Origin: a virus | Length of the DNA stretch: 64,000 nt | IMG/VR virus record: IMGVR_UViG_3300024239_000014 | Span: 1-64,000 of that record | Direction: 5' to 3' (one strand) | Shown: in pieces, positions 684 to 43,208 of the stretch | Position numbering within the stretch: position 1 is the first letter of the stretch | How the letters are laid out: each line of letters starts with the position of its first letter | Notes under the pieces: generated by a model | The model's input: only the letters and a program-made list of their open reading frames with translations | Told to the model about the DNA's origin: nothing | The model's database searches: none | Translations under genes and position numbers: made by a program

Positions 684-704
684 GGGTGAGGGTAACCCTC
701 ACCC
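684..704 (-). terminator. Hairpin terminator overlapping the stop of the 699-1088 gene
   Basis: A perfect 9-bp stem GGGTGAGGG/CCCTCACCC with loop TAA. The TGA stop of the gene at 699-1088 lies within it. On the minus strand it is followed by a T-rich run (ACTTTCTTTTTTT), which also precedes the Shine-Dalgarno of the next gene. Confidence 0.75.
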
Positions 705-1088
705 AGAACATTGGCCTTGTCGGAGTACACCGATAGCAACATCGGTTCCGTTCAAGCATTGAATATTCGTCATACAAATGACCGATAGTCCCAGAATGTC
801 GAACTTTTCGACAATCTCGCAGGCGATCGAGTAGATGCGAGCATTCAACTCTGCTTTCTCAGGAATAAAGTCGGCAAACCCTTCTTCAGGGATTGGACTC
901 TCGAACCATGCGGTGAGCCATTTCCAAAGAATGATGCTCATACGCCCTTCGATTGTCTGACACCACTGACCTCGTTCTTCAAAACGAGCATCTAGTTCAC
1001 CAAACTCCAACTCCGGGCGAGCCAACAAAAATTCACGAAGCGAGTCGAGTGACGCTAGTTCAAGGATCCAGACATCGTGCTGGCGCAT
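699..1088 (-). CDS. Hypothetical protein, 129 aa
   Basis: Not recognised. The ATG at 1088 has a weak AGGGAA upstream. The protein is acidic and mixed alpha/beta, with two Trp residues in a W-K-W-L-T-A-W stretch near residue 56, and ends in a strand-like LNGTDVAIGVLRQG. Its size and hydrophobic C-terminal strand resemble the next genes upstream in the operon (1097-2798), so these may be diverged copies of one fold; this is inference from visual comparison only. Confidence 0.65.
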   Translation of the reverse strand: MRQHDVWILELASLDSLREFLLARPELEFGELDARFEERGQWCQTIEGRMSIILWKWLTAWFESPIPEEGFADFIPEKAELNARIYSIACEIVEKFDILGLSVICMTNIQCLNGTDVAIGVLRQGQCSG

Positions 1089-1096
1089 AAGGTTCC

Positions 1097-1513
1097 CTAT
1101 AGAGCAGCGACTTGTTTAGCCGCTTTAACAACCGCAATGGTGTAAACATAGCCATTTGACGATTGGGCAGTGACAAATGCACGAGTACCTGGCACCGCCA
1201 GCTGCCTGGCGATTTGCTGGGTGATCTGGCACGTCATCAAGGTCTCGATCACCTGAAGAACAGATTTCTCTGTCTCATTGAGCGATGTCCAAGCAATGTC
1301 GCTACTTCTGTTAGAACCAATATCGGTCGGCTCGCCTTGCATCAGCAATTGAATTTGCAGTAACAGGTACTGTGGCAAGATGTTCGAAGCATACATCGCT
1401 ACAGCTTGAGAATGACCAACCAGTTCGGCATTGGCGTGGAAAAAGGGTGTCAGATCCAACACGACCGTTGAGACGACTTCGTGAGAAGGTGTATTTACGG
1501 TACTAGAAGTCAT
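1097..1513 (-). CDS. Hypothetical protein, 138 aa
   Basis: Not recognised. ATG at 1513 is chosen because AAGGAAA sits 7 bases upstream; a longer reading starting at 1543 would run further into the preceding gene. The start overlaps the 3' end of the 1503-1904 gene by 11 bases, implying translational coupling. The protein is largely helical in the middle (repeated Gln/Leu, LLLQIQLLMQ) and ends with a strand-like GYVYTIAVVKAAKQV. It may be a small head or tail accessory protein. Confidence 0.7.
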   Translation of the reverse strand: MTSSTVNTPSHEVVSTVVLDLTPFFHANAELVGHSQAVAMYASNILPQYLLLQIQLLMQGEPTDIGSNRSSDIAWTSLNETEKSVLQVIETLMTCQITQQIARQLAVPGTRAFVTAQSSNGYVYTIAVVKAAKQVAAL

Positions 1514-1904
1514 ATTCGTATTTCCTTGGTTCGACCAGTACAATGACTTCGGTCGGTGATAGCCATTTGTAAAGTTCGGCTCGGTAGTCCGACGCCTTAC
1601 CTGAGGTGACTGGGATGAACTTCAACAGCGTTTTACGCAGGCTATGTTCAATTTCTTTACACAAGTCGGATAAGTACCGATGCCTATAGAGATAATCAAC
1701 CTGGTCCTCTGAACCGGATTGGGCGTAGTAATCCAGCCGTACAGGCAATCCTACACCATTATACCCGAAGTGTAAGAATGAACAGGACAAGATATCGCCG
1801 ACACTAACACCATTGTCACGAAACGTAAACGCTAATCGATCGCGGATGTATTCGATTTCATCCGTGACTTTAAGCACCACATAAGCGCGTTGGAATACGA
1901 CCAT
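1503..1904 (-). CDS. Hypothetical protein, 133 aa
   Basis: Not recognised. Two starts are possible. ATG at 1904 has GAGG six bases upstream. ATG at 1916 overlaps the TGA of the upstream gene as ATGA. I prefer 1904 for its Shine-Dalgarno. The C-terminus ends in a strand followed by aromatic and acidic residues (VIVLVEPRKYEYDF). A very similar ending (AILVIEQEFDYN) occurs near residue 107 of the protein starting at 3665, suggesting the two are distant paralogues. Confidence 0.7.
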   Translation of the reverse strand: MVVFQRAYVVLKVTDEIEYIRDRLAFTFRDNGVSVGDILSCSFLHFGYNGVGLPVRLDYYAQSGSEDQVDYLYRHRYLSDLCKEIEHSLRKTLLKFIPVTSGKASDYRAELYKWLSPTEVIVLVEPRKYEYDF

Positions 1905-1912
1905 ACGCCACC

Positions 1913-2323
1913 TCATTGATTCACTTGGACCAGCAGGTCACCATACCGCGTAACGCCGATGACCATGACAGACGACCCATCTGCCACAAAAGGTGCCAGC
2001 GGCAAACAAAGCCTAACAAACGCTTCACCGCGCAATGCCAGATAATCGATTAACACCCTGGCATGGTCAACCAATGCATCGGACAAAGTCAGGCGTTGAT
2101 CGACTACCTCCTGGGGGTCATCAGGCGACGTAAAATCTTCCAGGTACTGGCTGTCAACGATGTCAGCAATCTGCTGGCTAATGACGGTGTTCCACCAATA
2201 ATCGCTATAAGTCATCCCTGCGGCATAAATCTCCGCAGTAGTGCGGACAAGCACGTCGTAGATCACGACGTTAGCAAAATACTTGTCAGCACCACTTGCG
2301 CGGAGGTCGTTGTCAATCATCAT
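1913..2323 (-). CDS. Hypothetical protein, 136 aa, translationally coupled
   Basis: Not recognised. The frame stays open up to 2467, but the first 150 bases overlap the well-formed 2313-2798 gene and read like an out-of-frame shadow. I choose the double ATG at 2323/2320, which overlaps the stop of 2313-2798 by 11 bases. No Shine-Dalgarno is visible there, so initiation would depend on coupling. The protein begins MMIDNDLRASG, is acidic, and ends with two hydrophobic strands (SSVMVIGVTRYGDLLVQV) like its neighbours. Confidence 0.6.
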   Translation of the reverse strand: MMIDNDLRASGADKYFANVVIYDVLVRTTAEIYAAGMTYSDYWWNTVISQQIADIVDSQYLEDFTSPDDPQEVVDQRLTLSDALVDHARVLIDYLALRGEAFVRLCLPLAPFVADGSSVMVIGVTRYGDLLVQVNQ

Positions 2324-2798
2324 CTTGACAGACAGAAACGGGAGTGAGACCACTAAAGCGGTGGTCGGTGTAAGTGGGCGGTATGATCGGATGGACGACG
2401 ACATAGATCCCGTCCATCGCCGGTAAGATCCGGTACCCAACCGATGAATGGAATCCTTCAGTGCCATACGACCAACCTCTCTGTTTAACAGCAGCTATCC
2501 CAAAAGACGAAAAGTCAAACTCTAACCGGCGGTATACCGCATCAATTAACTCGGTGGCCAGTCCGCTAGGTAGGCCCATGTCAACGAGGCGTTCCACTGG
2601 AGTCTGCTCGGCGTAATCGTATTCCGATACGCCGTGGCAAAGTAGGTCCAGACAATACCGCACCAAATAGCACAGTATTTCTGGACCAAAGACCATTTCG
2701 AGAACGCGGCTGTTTTGCTGCCCACGGACAATCGTTCTAACACGATCCACCAACGGACCGTCCGCTAGAAGAATGTGGAATACATGATTGACGTCCAT
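2313..2798 (-). CDS. Hypothetical protein, 161 aa
   Basis: Not recognised. Starts at ATG 2798, 11 bases after the stop of the 2810-3346 gene. A helical N-terminal part (residues 1-90) includes FGPEILCYLVRYCLDLL; a strand-rich C-terminal part includes GIYVVVHPIIPPTY. The 3' end overlaps the next gene. It is one member of the tightly packed small-gene operon 3665-236, which looks like one transcription unit. Confidence 0.7.
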   Translation of the reverse strand: MDVNHVFHILLADGPLVDRVRTIVRGQQNSRVLEMVFGPEILCYLVRYCLDLLCHGVSEYDYAEQTPVERLVDMGLPSGLATELIDAVYRRLEFDFSSFGIAAVKQRGWSYGTEGFHSSVGYRILPAMDGIYVVVHPIIPPTYTDHRFSGLTPVSVCQDDD

Positions 2799-36860: not shown

Positions 36861-37988
36861 TTAACTGTCTTCAAAAAAGAGGGCAGCCCCAACTTTCGAG
36901 CCTTCCAGCATCAGTCGGCTCATGATACCGATCTGATAAGGAGAACCCACGATACGGTTAAAAATCGACATGTGTCCGAACTTGCCGTCCAGCTGCAAAC
37001 CGGACTCGGTTTCCATCACCCCTTCGTACGTTCGACAGGTTACGGATTTCAGCTGGTTACCAAACACCAACTTATCACCGCCGCCGTAGTCTTCTTCGTA
37101 GGTAATGAAATAACGCACCGCCACGGTATCCTGTTCAAGTGGATACCCTTCGATTCGTACCCGGTCCATGACTTCGCCGTCTTCTGCTTCGTCGTTCCGG
37201 AGTTTCCGGACCAATGCAGCGCGTTTACGGTTGTAGGCTTTCACCAACTCCCGCAATGAGTCGGACATGTCTTCGAGGTCCCCTCGATAAAAGACCTCAA
37301 TCTTTTCCACCGTACCCTCGACTTTCGCCTTGGGTGTATGGGATGACAGCATCTTCAAAGTGTCCAACGACATCTCGTCGAAGAGCCCTGAATTGGCCGT
37401 CAGTTGGTCTTCAATCGTACATAGAATTGAGTCAGAGTCAACGATTTCGCCCTCTTTCACAATCCCACGGACCTCTTGGTCGAACTTCAAAATCACTGCT
37501 TTGACTTTCGTGAGTTTGGTCTTAAGCTTCTCGGCAGAACGTGACATCAACGCCGAGGAGTCCTCAAACGTATCTGCGTCATCAAGGATCGCCACGTTAA
37601 ACAGTGCGCCAGATTTCCACAACACCTGTGTCGGGTAGAAGTGGTCTCTGACGAACCAGTGACTATTCCAAGCCAAGACATCGCCCTTAACGAACGATTG
37701 ACCAACCACCACATCTGTTTCTACCTGATGTGGATAGCAACTCCCTTCAGCCCGCCCGAAGCGGCGACCGAGTTCTACCGACGTAACGGTCCCGTCTTTG
37801 TACTCGATCAACAGATGGTTCGGGCTAACCTCTTTCACCATCCCATCAGCCGTCGCAGCAAATGCGTAAAGGTCGCCCACACGCTTAGACAGGACATTTT
37901 CATATCCGGTCACAGTCGGCATGTAGGTATAACCTTCAGCAGCAATACCTGACGATTGTTGGATGCTGGCAAAGAGGGCACGTTTCAT
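36861..37988 (-). CDS. Virion RNA polymerase beta subunit, exon 2 (C-terminal part of the spliced protein)
   Basis: Encodes 375 residues beginning (M)KRALFASIQQSSG, equivalent to E. coli beta ANRALMGANMQRQAV. It includes KLVFGNQLKSV, equivalent to the catalytic-lysine region GDKMAGRHGNKGV, and ESGLQLDGKFGHMSIFNRIV, equivalent to the NPLGVPSRMNIGQ segment. The reading frame starts with ATG but has no Shine-Dalgarno, and homology begins before it: joining to exon 1 gives HDD-M-KRALF, which lines up residue for residue with E. coli HDDANRAL. This is therefore an exon rather than a separate gene. The extreme beta C-terminus is encoded elsewhere (56643-57317). Confidence 0.88.
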   Translation of the reverse strand: MKRALFASIQQSSGIAAEGYTYMPTVTGYENVLSKRVGDLYAFAATADGMVKEVSPNHLLIEYKDGTVTSVELGRRFGRAEGSCYPHQVETDVVVGQSFVKGDVLAWNSHWFVRDHFYPTQVLWKSGALFNVAILDDADTFEDSSALMSRSAEKLKTKLTKVKAVILKFDQEVRGIVKEGEIVDSDSILCTIEDQLTANSGLFDEMSLDTLKMLSSHTPKAKVEGTVEKIEVFYRGDLEDMSDSLRELVKAYNRKRAALVRKLRNDEAEDGEVMDRVRIEGYPLEQDTVAVRYFITYEEDYGGGDKLVFGNQLKSVTCRTYEGVMETESGLQLDGKFGHMSIFNRIVGSPYQIGIMSRLMLEGSKVGAALFFEDS

Positions 37989-38330
37989 CTAATGTCTTCA
38001 ATGTGGCCTAACCACACCCGTGCACCGCATGCACTGCTCCAGGTTTTCCCTGGATGTAGAGACTATATCTTCACCCTCGCTGGATTTGCGATAGGGTGCC
38101 TCCCATTTCGGCGGATGCCTACGAGCTCGCGCTCTAGTCGTTGAACGTTCTTCCCAGTAGGAAGCTTCGCTGCGGATTACCCAATCCCAGTCTCTTTTAC
38201 CATACCCAAGTGATTAGCTTGGCCACCTGTACATTACTGTTACAAGCTTGGTGTACTGGGCTTTCAGTGGATTCCCGTCAGTTAGAGAGGATTCGCTACC
38301 GGATTACGCCGGTAGAGGACTATGTAAATA
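37989..38330 (-). ncRNA. Group I self-splicing intron in the RNA polymerase beta gene, 342 nt, no ORF
   Basis: On the minus strand the conserved group I elements occur in order: P1 (exon GAT^TAT pairing with intron ATAGTC, U.G pair at the splice site), P2 hairpin CTACCGG/CCGGTAG, the Q-like AATCCGCAGCGAAGC (near 38164-38182), R GTTCAACGACTAGAG (near 38132-38150), and S GAAGATATAGTCTC (near 38060-38073). GACTA pairs with TAGTC to form P7. Two hairpins follow (CCAGG/CCTGG, GTGCA/TGCAC). The last intron base is G (37989). Removal fuses the two exons in frame across a conserved polymerase motif. No homing endonuclease is encoded. Confidence 0.93.
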
Positions 38331-41300
38331 ATCGTCGTGAACGATCGAGGGTGACAGGTTACCAGTAGTACTCAACACCGATGTCAACCCGTCGCCATTC
38401 TTGTCGAACGCTCGTGTGACACCATAAAGGTTGGTGAAGTTCGGATCAGAAGACAGGTAGGTGTTCACCGCCACTTCAGACGAGTCCACCGTTGCTTCAG
38501 AAACCACCCCGAAGTCAGAATCATCGTACGCACGTGTGCTGCGCACCATGGTGCGACTACTGCGACCGCCAGTACCACCAAAGGTCACAGCTTCCTGTTC
38601 TTTCAAGTGGTGAACCGGGTTGATGTCCTGCACCAGTGTGATACTCGGATCGCTCTGAATTGCATTCCATACCGCATTGGGCTTGATGTCAATGCTGGCT
38701 CGACTCGTTACCGGTTTTCCATGGTACTGTTTCAGCGCCATAGCCAATTCACGATACACGGCACCGGCAATACGCTCGTAGCCTTTGAATCGATCTGGAC
38801 GGTGTTCCACTTCATCATTCTGAAGCATTTCCACGGAGCGGAAAAGCAGCCCATCAAAAGTGGTTGGTTCCTGGTAGCTTTCCAGCAACGTCTTCGTGAT
38901 CGGATCTACGAAGTGCAGCATCAGCACATCAAGCTCACGCAGCTGTCTGGCTGTCATCCCAAGCCCATCGAGCAGGTTCAGGTAGACATCCTGCCGGTTG
39001 AACTCCTTCACGGAATAGTGCGACATCTGCCGGTGGAAACGGTTCATGCCAGAAAGCACCAACGCTGCTTTTCGGTCGTGGCGCGACAGAGCCCAGGTTT
39101 CATCCTTAAAGCGCAGTGAATATTCACCATGCTCCAGGGTGGCCTTTTGCCCCTTGGGAATACGGCGAGGTGTTACCCCCAGTCGTCGGCAGAGTTCGTC
39201 CAAACCGAAGTAGTAGCCGAAGACAAACCCGAGCGGGATTTCCTTACCGGCCACTTTTATCTCGATCTGTTCAATCGGCGCTTGGTTGTTATCAAAACCA
39301 ACCAGATCGCCAATATCGCCCACTGGCATTGGTTTACCGTCTTCCGTGGTATAAAGCGCATCGCGATCATCGACGTACAGGAACTTCGAGTTGTCTTCAC
39401 GTCGTCCCATGACCACCAAGCCGTCGATCTCACCTGCCAAGGCATCTGCACCAAAGAAGGCGGCGCGGTTGTCGTAGTCGAAGTTCAACTCCCAGCCATT
39501 TACGGTAAAGCCGATAAAGCGACTGGTCAGGATGGTGTACAGACGAGGAAGGCGCGACCCCTTCTTCCGACCCTGGGTTTTGTACGCCAGCTTGGAAACA
39601 GTGGCGTTATCACCCATTGACATGTAGATGATGCGGTTCTGCAACCACCGACCGTAGTTGTGCACGGCCTTCTCAGAACGTTTCACAAAGAGCTTGCCGT
39701 AGTAGCTGGTCAAAGCCACTTTATCCGGAGCCACCTTGTGGATCGGACAATCACCTCGTTGCTTACGCAGACGGTATTTCACGCCATCGGCCACCCAGCT
39801 ACCGTCTTCAGCCACGACCGGCAGCTCGATCCGCACGGTCGTGGGTTTGCCAGCCACTGGGACCAGTTTAACAGTGATCACGTCGTATTTGTTCAGAGCG
39901 TCTTTGACGCGCTCTACTTCGTACGACGTCACGGCAACACCCGAATGCTGCAGCGACATGATCATCCGCGCTACGTCTCGATGCAGGACGTCTTTGATGT
40001 ACGCCTTGTCGAAATCGAGCAGCGTACTTCTCAGCATGGTCTTGTCAGTGACTGCTTCATGGTCAGTTACAGAGAGTCGTTCGGGCTTCAACGAAACATC
40101 GCTGTCTTTGACATCAATCAAGTCAGCCAATGTCCCTTGACCAAAGGGGTTTTCGATGGACTTGTAACTGTTCGCCAGTTTTTCAAAGCGACGAAATTCG
40201 GCTCCAGAAATCATAGCGTGTTCAAGCAAGCGTTCAGCGCTGTGGATTACACCGAGTTCCGGTTTCGCAGTCAGGTCAATCGCCGCTTTACTTTCATTAC
40301 CCACCTGCCCCAGTTCCACACCAGGGATGTGGAGCTCAAACAGATCGTCATTCCAAATGTCCACAGCACCTTCTGCCAGAGCTTCGAGTTCTTCGCGATA
40401 CTCGTCAGCTTCTTTTTCAGACATTTCAGGAATGGCGGCTTCCTGCTCTTCTGGCATCGGTGTATCTTTCAGACGTTCAGGTACGGTAGCGCCTGGTGCT
40501 TCGCTACCGCTGTCGCTTTCATCGTCAGTGTCGTGGACTGGCGGTAGATCACTGTCTTCTTCGACAGCATCGACCTGTACTGCGGTGAAGACGTTTTCAG
40601 CACGCAGCTTGGCGAGTTGGATAAAGAAGTAGTAGACCTTCCGTTGAAAGGTTTCCATGCTTGCATCGATGACATCACCATCGGTCTTTGCACGCGCTTT
40701 GCGCCACCCATCCAATTGACCGAGGTTGATCACCCCACCCTGACCGTTATCAGTAACCACCAGGTTCACACGAGCCAGAGCCTCGGGCTTGATTTTCGAC
40801 AGCAACGACTCACCGTGCTTCTTACCAGCCCAAGTCCACAGGTCGAGCAGAAACATCGACTCGTACGTCGACAACGATTCCACCACGTTTTTAGACAGGC
40901 TATTTTCACCCATCTTCAACAGCGCTAACCGCGGCAGGTGTTGCGGTAGGTTGATGTGGATGTAATGCTGACGATCGCTCTGGATAGCAATGTCGTTGAT
41001 GGTTTCGATCATCGTGGCAAAAATGTTCTGCCAACGATAATAGTTTGCCATGAAGTTAACGGGGTAGCGGTACAGATGCTGGAGTAACGCGTAGTTGATA
41101 ACCAGGGTAGACCGCAGGTCACGATCCACCATGTCAAACTGCCGCACCCGTCTGAGCAGACGGTTCTTCTTCTCCAGGTCGCGGATTGCAGTACCGGCAT
41201 TGATAGACCCCATGCGAATAGGTCTACCTACTTCACTTTTAAGTTCTGCCACATGCTGACAGTACAGCAACCCGCCCTTGCGCTGAATGAACGGGTCGTT

Positions 41301-41459
41301 GTTATCCAACGACCGTTCTTGTGTGTTCAGTGGCAGATAATGGTACACCGGCCGTAGGGGAAAGGCCAATTCAACCAAGGGCTTAAATGCAAAGCCTGTC
41401 AGTTGTTGCTCTTTCCACACCCCGTTCTTACGGTAGTACTGTGGGTATTTTAAAAACAT
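38331..41459 (-). CDS. Virion RNA polymerase beta subunit, exon 1 (N-terminal 1043 residues)
   Basis: ATG 41459 with AAGGA upstream, 10 bases after the beta' gene. The first 1043 codons form the large N-terminal part of a multisubunit RNA polymerase beta, ending NLSPSIVHDD, the counterpart of E. coli SLIPFLEHDD. An acidic low-complexity insert (DSDLPPVHDTDDESDSGSEA, near residue 310) is an unusual feature. Unspliced RNA would read eight further codons into the intron and stop at 38304. With exon 2 the protein has 1418 residues. It would be carried in the virion and injected to start early transcription (phiKZ gp178 type). Confidence 0.88.
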
Positions 41460-41469
41460 TCGACCGTCC

Positions 41470-43098
41470 TTATGCTGGGGTGGTCAGAAGTGACTTCAGC
41501 ACGAGTGTGATGGTGTCGTTGTTGGCTGAAGTCACCAGCTTCCCTGACGCACTGATCGCAAAGGACCGGCTGTGCAGGTAGCGCTTGATTTCTTCACCAG
41601 AATCTTTCAGGTAGACAGTTTCTGCCGAGCAGGTATCGCCGTCATAGTCACCACCCAGATCGGCCAAGAACGCCGGGTGGGGTGCCATCGTGGAAATAAA
41701 CTTCGCATTGATGTCGGTGTCGGGAAATTCACGTGCCGTAAACTCGGCGCCTTTAGGTTCCCACGCTTCGTCCAACTCAATCTTGGCAGACGCTTTGACA
41801 GTAGTCCGACAATACAGCTGCGACGGGTACATACTTCCCACGCCTGCTACCGGATAGCGGGTTACAAAGGTGTACAGTTCGTACCACTTCTGATATCCAC
41901 TCAGGTAGAACAGTTCAGTGTACGTCATCGGATGGACATTCTTGCGACTCAGATTCTTCGGCAGGTCTTCAATGTCATTAAAGACCTTGAAGTGCTTGTC
42001 GTCGCTGTACACGAGCCCCAAGTAATACCCTTCAATCTTCACGGGCTTTTGACGCAACTTGGGATTTTCAAATGCTTCAATGAGCTTCTCGATCCCAGCC
42101 GCTGTTGTCCACTTGTCGATGGTTTCCACGCCGACTGATTTGTATTCAGCTTTGAGCGTTTTAGGGTTTACCAATAACGCGTCACGATCCGCGCCAGCAA
42201 AGACGTGACTGACCACGCCGGTCAAGATAAGGTGTACTGCTACAGGTAAGGCTGACTTCAGTGTTTGATACAACCCCATCTGGGTGTTGATCACGGACAT
42301 ACTGCGCAGACCACCGAAGTAGTCCGCCACGGTGTCCATTGAAGAAATAACGTTACGTGTCCCGTTGAATACGCGACGACTACCCCATTTAGCCTGAACG
42401 AACCCTTTCTTGCCGTAAAGGATTTCAGCGATCTTGTCGTAGATATCCGTGAACGCTCGTTCAAGACTCAGGCGAGCTGGGTCGAACGCGGAGTCGTCGT
42501 AACTGTTGACGTTACCAAGCGTGTTGCTGACCGCAATCAGGCGACGATAGGGGTCGTTGATCTCATCTTCGATGGTACGACCGTACTCATCTACCTCAAT
42601 GTCGCGCAGCCCAGCAGGAAGAACCAGGATCTTGTCGACCATGGCAACGCTGCGGTACTTTTCAACAAACTGCAGCGCAATACGACGGCGGATGCTTTTG
42701 GTTTCTCCAAATACAATCGATTGCCACTTTTCGGCAAAAAAACCAAATCCGGTTCCAGCACCATCCTCTTCAGGTAGTGCAGGAACAAAATCATTCTTTT
42801 GACCATCCCACTTGGCGTAGGCTTTACCGGTAGCAACGTCACCGTATAGGCCTTTCAGGTCCACCAGACGTCGATAAATCAGCGGGTGGAAGATCAAAGC
42901 TTTGATGTCGATGTAACCGAAGTTGGTATCGCGTTCAGGACTCCCGACTCGGCCAAAGGTCGTTGTAGAAAACAGACCATCTTCATGGTAGTTGTTGGTC
43001 ATCCCGTCGAAGATATCGAGCGACTTCACTTGGCGCATGGCCTTAAGTGATTCGGTCGTGGGTTTCAACAACCGTAAATTAAAGGGCGCTTTGGCCAT
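41470..43098 (-). CDS. Virion RNA polymerase beta' subunit, N-terminal part (phiKZ gp180-like)
   Basis: 542 residues from ATG 43098 (GGAG upstream; an earlier GTG at 43143 is less likely). The catalytic magnesium motif of beta' appears near the C-terminus as GGDYDGDTCSAE, the counterpart of NADFDGD. Upstream are RIALQFVEKYRSVAMVDKIL-type core elements and MTYTELFYLSGYQ. The beta' C-terminal half is absent here and must be encoded elsewhere in the genome, as in phiKZ where it is a separate gene. It is transcribed together with beta, 10 bases apart. Confidence 0.9.
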   Translation of the reverse strand: MAKAPFNLRLLKPTTESLKAMRQVKSLDIFDGMTNNYHEDGLFSTTTFGRVGSPERDTNFGYIDIKALIFHPLIYRRLVDLKGLYGDVATGKAYAKWDGQKNDFVPALPEEDGAGTGFGFFAEKWQSIVFGETKSIRRRIALQFVEKYRSVAMVDKILVLPAGLRDIEVDEYGRTIEDEINDPYRRLIAVSNTLGNVNSYDDSAFDPARLSLERAFTDIYDKIAEILYGKKGFVQAKWGSRRVFNGTRNVISSMDTVADYFGGLRSMSVINTQMGLYQTLKSALPVAVHLILTGVVSHVFAGADRDALLVNPKTLKAEYKSVGVETIDKWTTAAGIEKLIEAFENPKLRQKPVKIEGYYLGLVYSDDKHFKVFNDIEDLPKNLSRKNVHPMTYTELFYLSGYQKWYELYTFVTRYPVAGVGSMYPSQLYCRTTVKASAKIELDEAWEPKGAEFTAREFPDTDINAKFISTMAPHPAFLADLGGDYDGDTCSAETVYLKDSGEEIKRYLHSRSFAISASGKLVTSANNDTITLVLKSLLTTPA

Positions 43099-43208
43099 AG
43101 TGGACTCCGTCAGCGTAAAACTATGAGGGTTCCCAACGACCAATCCGCGCCGGGGTGTAACGAACCCGACAGGCGCCGATAGTCTATATGTCTTACAGGA
43201 ACAAACCG

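Follow-up and report, generated by a model that had tools for sequence, protein, structure and literature searches.

A group I intron without an ORF at a previously known insertion site in the virion RNA polymerase beta gene of a predicted nucleus-forming jumbo phage

A described counterpart of the locus reported here lies in phage PhiPA3, in which the gp210 intron interrupts the beta gene of the virion RNA polymerase (vRNAP) at the identical position (Birkholz 2024, PMC11620839). The phiKZ homologue of this gene is gp178, one of the subunits of the polymerase carried in the virion (PMC11620839). Reverse splicing, collaborative homing, and endonucleases of relaxed specificity are listed as candidate routes by which group I introns may reach new sites, and the RNA-based route of site change is still without direct experimental evidence (PMC3984707). 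The intron in our window (the whole 64-kb stretch of phage DNA that was analyzed) is not a new kind; the site directly after the HDD codons is already known to be occupied in related phages. The novelty implied in a preliminary description of this DNA does not hold, with the same site filled in PhiPA3 (PMC11620839), 201phi2-1, EL, HPP-Temi, and others.

That description had placed an ORF-less group I intron of 342 nt at 37989-38330 on the minus strand, coordinates that prove right to the base, and had proposed a covariance search with the Rfam group I model. The search matched RF00028 over its full length (1-253) with 78.5 bits and an E value of 2.8e-18, the gathering cut-off being 50 bits, and this was the sole Rfam family found across the 64-kb window. 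The last exon base is U38331, the last intron base is G37989, and the insertion is in phase 0, between codons; stop codons occur in all frames of the 342 nt, which contain no ORF. The 5′ exon strand of P1, GACGAU (38331-38336, minus strand, with U38331 at the splice site), pairs with the internal guide sequence (IGS) GUCCUC (38315-38320, minus strand) through U.G, A-U, G-C, a CxC mismatch, A-U, and, including the final C, G-C. The U.G wobble at the 5′ splice site (U38331.G38320) and the terminal G37989 are thus both in place; the wobble had been read correctly at the outset, as had the P7 pairing GACTA/TAGTC, whose strands GACUA (38135-38139, minus strand) and UAGUC (38061-38065, minus strand) are located by the RF00028 match and the covariation alignment. 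Sequence and fold also delimit a P2 hairpin, CUACCGG-CGUAAU-CCGGUAG (38296-38315, minus strand). Two further hairpins, P7.1 GAGC-GCGA-GCUC and P7.2 GGC-AUCC-GCC, could be read from the sequence between 38135 and the 3′ strand of P3, a placement between P7 5′ and P3 3′ strands that we take to be the mark of subgroup IA, and P8 and P9 are present as well.

The assignment to group I draws on the RF00028 match together with covariation. An alignment of 11 related introns contained 70 two-sided changes, compared to 26 after shuffling and 6-20 with slid partners; such changes affected 26 of the 43 pairs, and the covariation score was 0.414 versus 0.189 for the shuffled control. P7 is invariant and hence uninformative. 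Folding the intron alone returned a z of -2.1 and missed the pseudoknotted core, and was set aside as evidence. Self-splicing after U38331 is predicted from these sequence features. The GUCC core of the IGS would match GGAU mismatch-free, and GGAU is the exon end at related DNA polymerase sites; the argument that the IGS "remembers" a DNA polymerase exon is weakened by several HDD-site introns that likewise pair imperfectly.

Joining 38331 to 37988 produces one continuous vRNAP beta subunit of 1419 aa. Exon 1 (38331-41459, minus strand; 1043 codons ending in VHDD) matches PHROG 3148 at positions 2-1050 (1032 bits), and exon 2 (36861-37988, minus strand; 375 codons starting MKRALF) at positions 1051-1414 (462 bits), so that the two exons abut at consecutive positions of the profile. 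Aligned to the Thermus RNAP beta subunit (PDB), the spliced peptide shows no gap across the junction. The initial proposals that the ORFs at 38304-41459 and 36861-37988 form one gene, and that joining them restores HDD-M-KRALF, aligned with the HDDANRAL motif of bacterial beta, are borne out by both alignments; the unspliced exon 1 reading terminates within the intron, at a stop codon at 38304. These assignments came from PHROGs and PDB matches, and Pfam gave no match for RNAP or DNA polymerase fragments. The upstream neighbor is a vRNAP beta′ fragment (41470-43143, minus strand; PHROG 2986, 676 bits). Intron-free relatives (FLC9, LucasX, KTN4, Moabite, and IMG/VR contigs) are continuous through DD/PKR or DD/AKR, where the slash in peptide motifs, here and below, marks the insertion point. 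The gene model is corrected to a single beta subunit in place of two truncated ORFs, and the same two-ORF mis-annotation is seen in the deposited EL, Yaphecito, and CF8 records.

The genome also encodes a chimallin homologue of 615 aa (26% identity over 455 columns to PhiPA3 gp053, E 9e-22), and chimallin matched 75 phage records. Possession of chimallin places the phage among the nucleus-forming phages, and judged by its sequence it is a divergent nucleus-forming (chimallivirus) jumbo phage. When 20 kb of the window were compared at the nucleotide level to the phage collection, no close relative emerged. The present case adds an uncultivated and distant nucleus-forming phage to those occupied at the site of the "weaponised" PhiPA3 intron.

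The same boundary between codons is interrupted in EL, MIZ-Pa99, Yaphecito, HPP-Temi, 2050HW, and four IMG/VR contigs (L022, L023, L025, L026), Yaphecito being counted solely as a same-codon insertion because its in-frame boundary lacks a terminal G that would fix the 3′ splice site. Approximately half of the HDD-site introns are without an ORF. Searches of the genome record for HNH_3, NUMOD4, and LAGLIDADG_3 gave no match, and GIY-YIG, the last of the four endonuclease families searched, gave one, beside the thymidylate synthase gene. The introns of CF8, PS1, and ZK_P1 (L010, L011, and L013) were left out of the HDD-site set; they lie at a second site ~10 nt downstream (DDSKR/), and one has an HNH ORF. 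In the IMG/VR contig 3300036546_000129 (L022, 4489-5996), this vRNAP beta motif is interrupted by two group I introns in tandem, with an apparent 11-nt exon, CCAAAACGAGT (PKRV), between them; the first has an HNH ORF, and a P1 of GAGU/GCUC with a U.G pair in the second fits this boundary.

How the window intron relates to these occupants was queried with a tree of 38 intron cores (~150-240 columns), in which it joins the DNA polymerase introns of PhiPA3 and HPP-Temi (96/83) and the HDD-site introns scatter. Ultrafast bootstrap support for the grouping with DNA polymerase introns was 96-98% in four of the six treatments; it fell to 72% when the column filter was at its strictest and to 51% under one of the alignment modes. 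A single clade of all HDD-site introns was rejected (p-AU 0.00025; 6e-6 to 0.0014 with other alignments), as was a clade of the window intron, the PhiPA3 gp210 intron, and 201phi2-1 (p-AU 0.0125). On the vRNAP beta tree, well supported branches impose no fewer than five changes in the presence of an intron at the HDD site. What is new here is that the window intron is not a sister of the other HDD-site introns and groups instead with DNA polymerase introns. The same trees bear on an alternative that we regard as unlikely, namely that the window intron shares descent, vertical or through homing, with the PhiPA3 gp210 intron and has simply lost the HNH ORF. Besides the identical insertion site, this alternative can draw on the HNH ORFs of six HDD-site introns, which are mutually homologous (26-50% identity) and start at ~nt 37-67 of the intron, in the 5′ region where the window intron has P2, and on ORF-less forms at the site in 201phi2-1 and HPP-Temi. 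The intron bodies, however, do not group in either of the rejected clades, and the nearest relatives of the window intron are the DNA polymerase introns.

From its sequence record, then, the HDD site appears to be a hot spot in which different introns have settled on more than one occasion. We lean toward the view that the HDD codons were filled repeatedly and independently by different group I introns that move among the codons for catalytic motifs in the vRNAP, nvRNAP, and DNA polymerase genes of nucleus-forming phages, with the window intron as a case in point; the intron tree gives no direction of transfer between genes. The natural series of empty, ORF-less, and endonuclease-bearing forms, across several lineages at one codon, makes tractable the question of how group I introns move to new sites.

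Part of this series is seen in three Serratia phages (Moabitevirus) with near-identical beta genes: the HDD site is empty in Moabite (L015), holds an ORF-less insertion in Yaphecito (L008), and an HNH-bearing one in 2050HW (L012). Across most of the exons, identity is 95-100%; the positions at which the sequences depart from Moabite are concentrated within ~15 nt of the insertion, and identity is 85% in the first 60 nt downstream of it. Such clustering in the flanking sequence is what co-conversion during homing would be expected to leave. Between Yaphecito and 2050HW, the introns themselves align only in part, with 77% identity over 111 nt. The patchy intron states and the co-conversion signature point to mobility and dispensability rather than to a regulatory role.

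Taken together, we consider it highly probable that the window holds an ORF-less IA intron, predicted to self-splice, at a recurrent homing site in the vRNAP beta gene, most likely as a largely neutral, selfish passenger. The RNA would excise itself after U38331, bringing HDD next to MKRALF in the 1419-aa subunit; the neutrality of the passenger we infer. Its residence in the most conserved codons would arise because homing endonucleases target them and imprecise loss there would be lethal, and its movement may have proceeded by collaborative or ectopic homing, or by reverse splicing.

The preliminary description had gone further, suggesting that splicing could serve to time or gate virion polymerase assembly, a domesticated role that we find without support and judge very improbable. 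Unspliced RNA cannot encode an intact beta subunit, and bacteria offer examples of group I introns domesticated as regulators (PMC3984707), but intron presence is patchy among near-identical beta genes, no added regulatory domain is apparent in the 342 nt, and the phage also has introns in its nvRNAP beta′ and DNA polymerase genes. Both of the latter are ORF-less group I introns. The nvRNAP beta′ intron (G000 242299-242698, L005 7300-7699, minus strand) directly precedes the catalytic ADFDGDQ motif (GPN/ADFDGDQ); the DNA polymerase intron (297 nt; G000 216137-216393, L006 8138-8394, plus strand) sits at motif A (HVAD/IDVAAAYPN), 6 nt upstream of the PhiPA3 DNA polymerase intron site. Least probable of all is a genuinely split beta, with the two ORFs translated as separate subunits and no splicing: exon 2 does start with ATG, and split RNAP subunits are frequent in jumbo phages (PMC7598289), but a split here would cut HDD/KRAL in the active center, relatives have V, P, or A at the position of the ATG codon, the GAA(G)-rich stretch ahead of the junction is common to the 3′ ends of related introns and hence no specific RBS, and the unspliced exon 1 product would end with 8 additional residues.

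Two further loci came to light in the survey. In the same genome, a thymidylate synthase gene (L030 ~700-2498, minus strand; genome ~152-154 kb) is split by a 285-aa GIY-YIG endonuclease ORF; the arrangement is reminiscent of the T4 td intron and has an intron-like tail, with no Rfam match at E<0.1. In the nvRNAP beta′ gene of another contig (L055/L059, contig of L029, 109166-110355), three successive group I matches suggest several introns around the DFDGD codons.

Returning to the predicted passenger intron of the window, its likeness to described introns divides between insertion site and intron body. The PhiPA3 gp211/gp210/gp209 intron likewise lies in vRNAP beta directly after two conserved Asp residues and has a group I core (PMC11620839); unlike the window intron, it encodes the HNH homing endonuclease gp210, and its body falls on another branch. 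The 201phi2-1 gp273/274 intron (336 nt) shares gene, site, and the lack of an ORF, and its host gene is already deposited as a single joined CDS, with a product identified by mass spectrometry and a mobile element noted as the interruption; it too belongs to another branch, and its alignment to the window intron is short (47 nt at 79%). The vRNAP beta intron of HPP-Temi (348 nt) has the same site and no endonuclease ORF but a different branch; the HNH-bearing DNA polymerase intron of that phage is close to the window intron. The closest sequence relative is the PhiPA3 gp085/084 DNA polymerase intron (73.9% over 268 nt, 75% of the length), which is also ORF-less (344 nt) and has the P5 and P9 peripheral elements in common with the window intron, but sits in the motif A codons of DNA polymerase (HVADLD/IVSTYPN).
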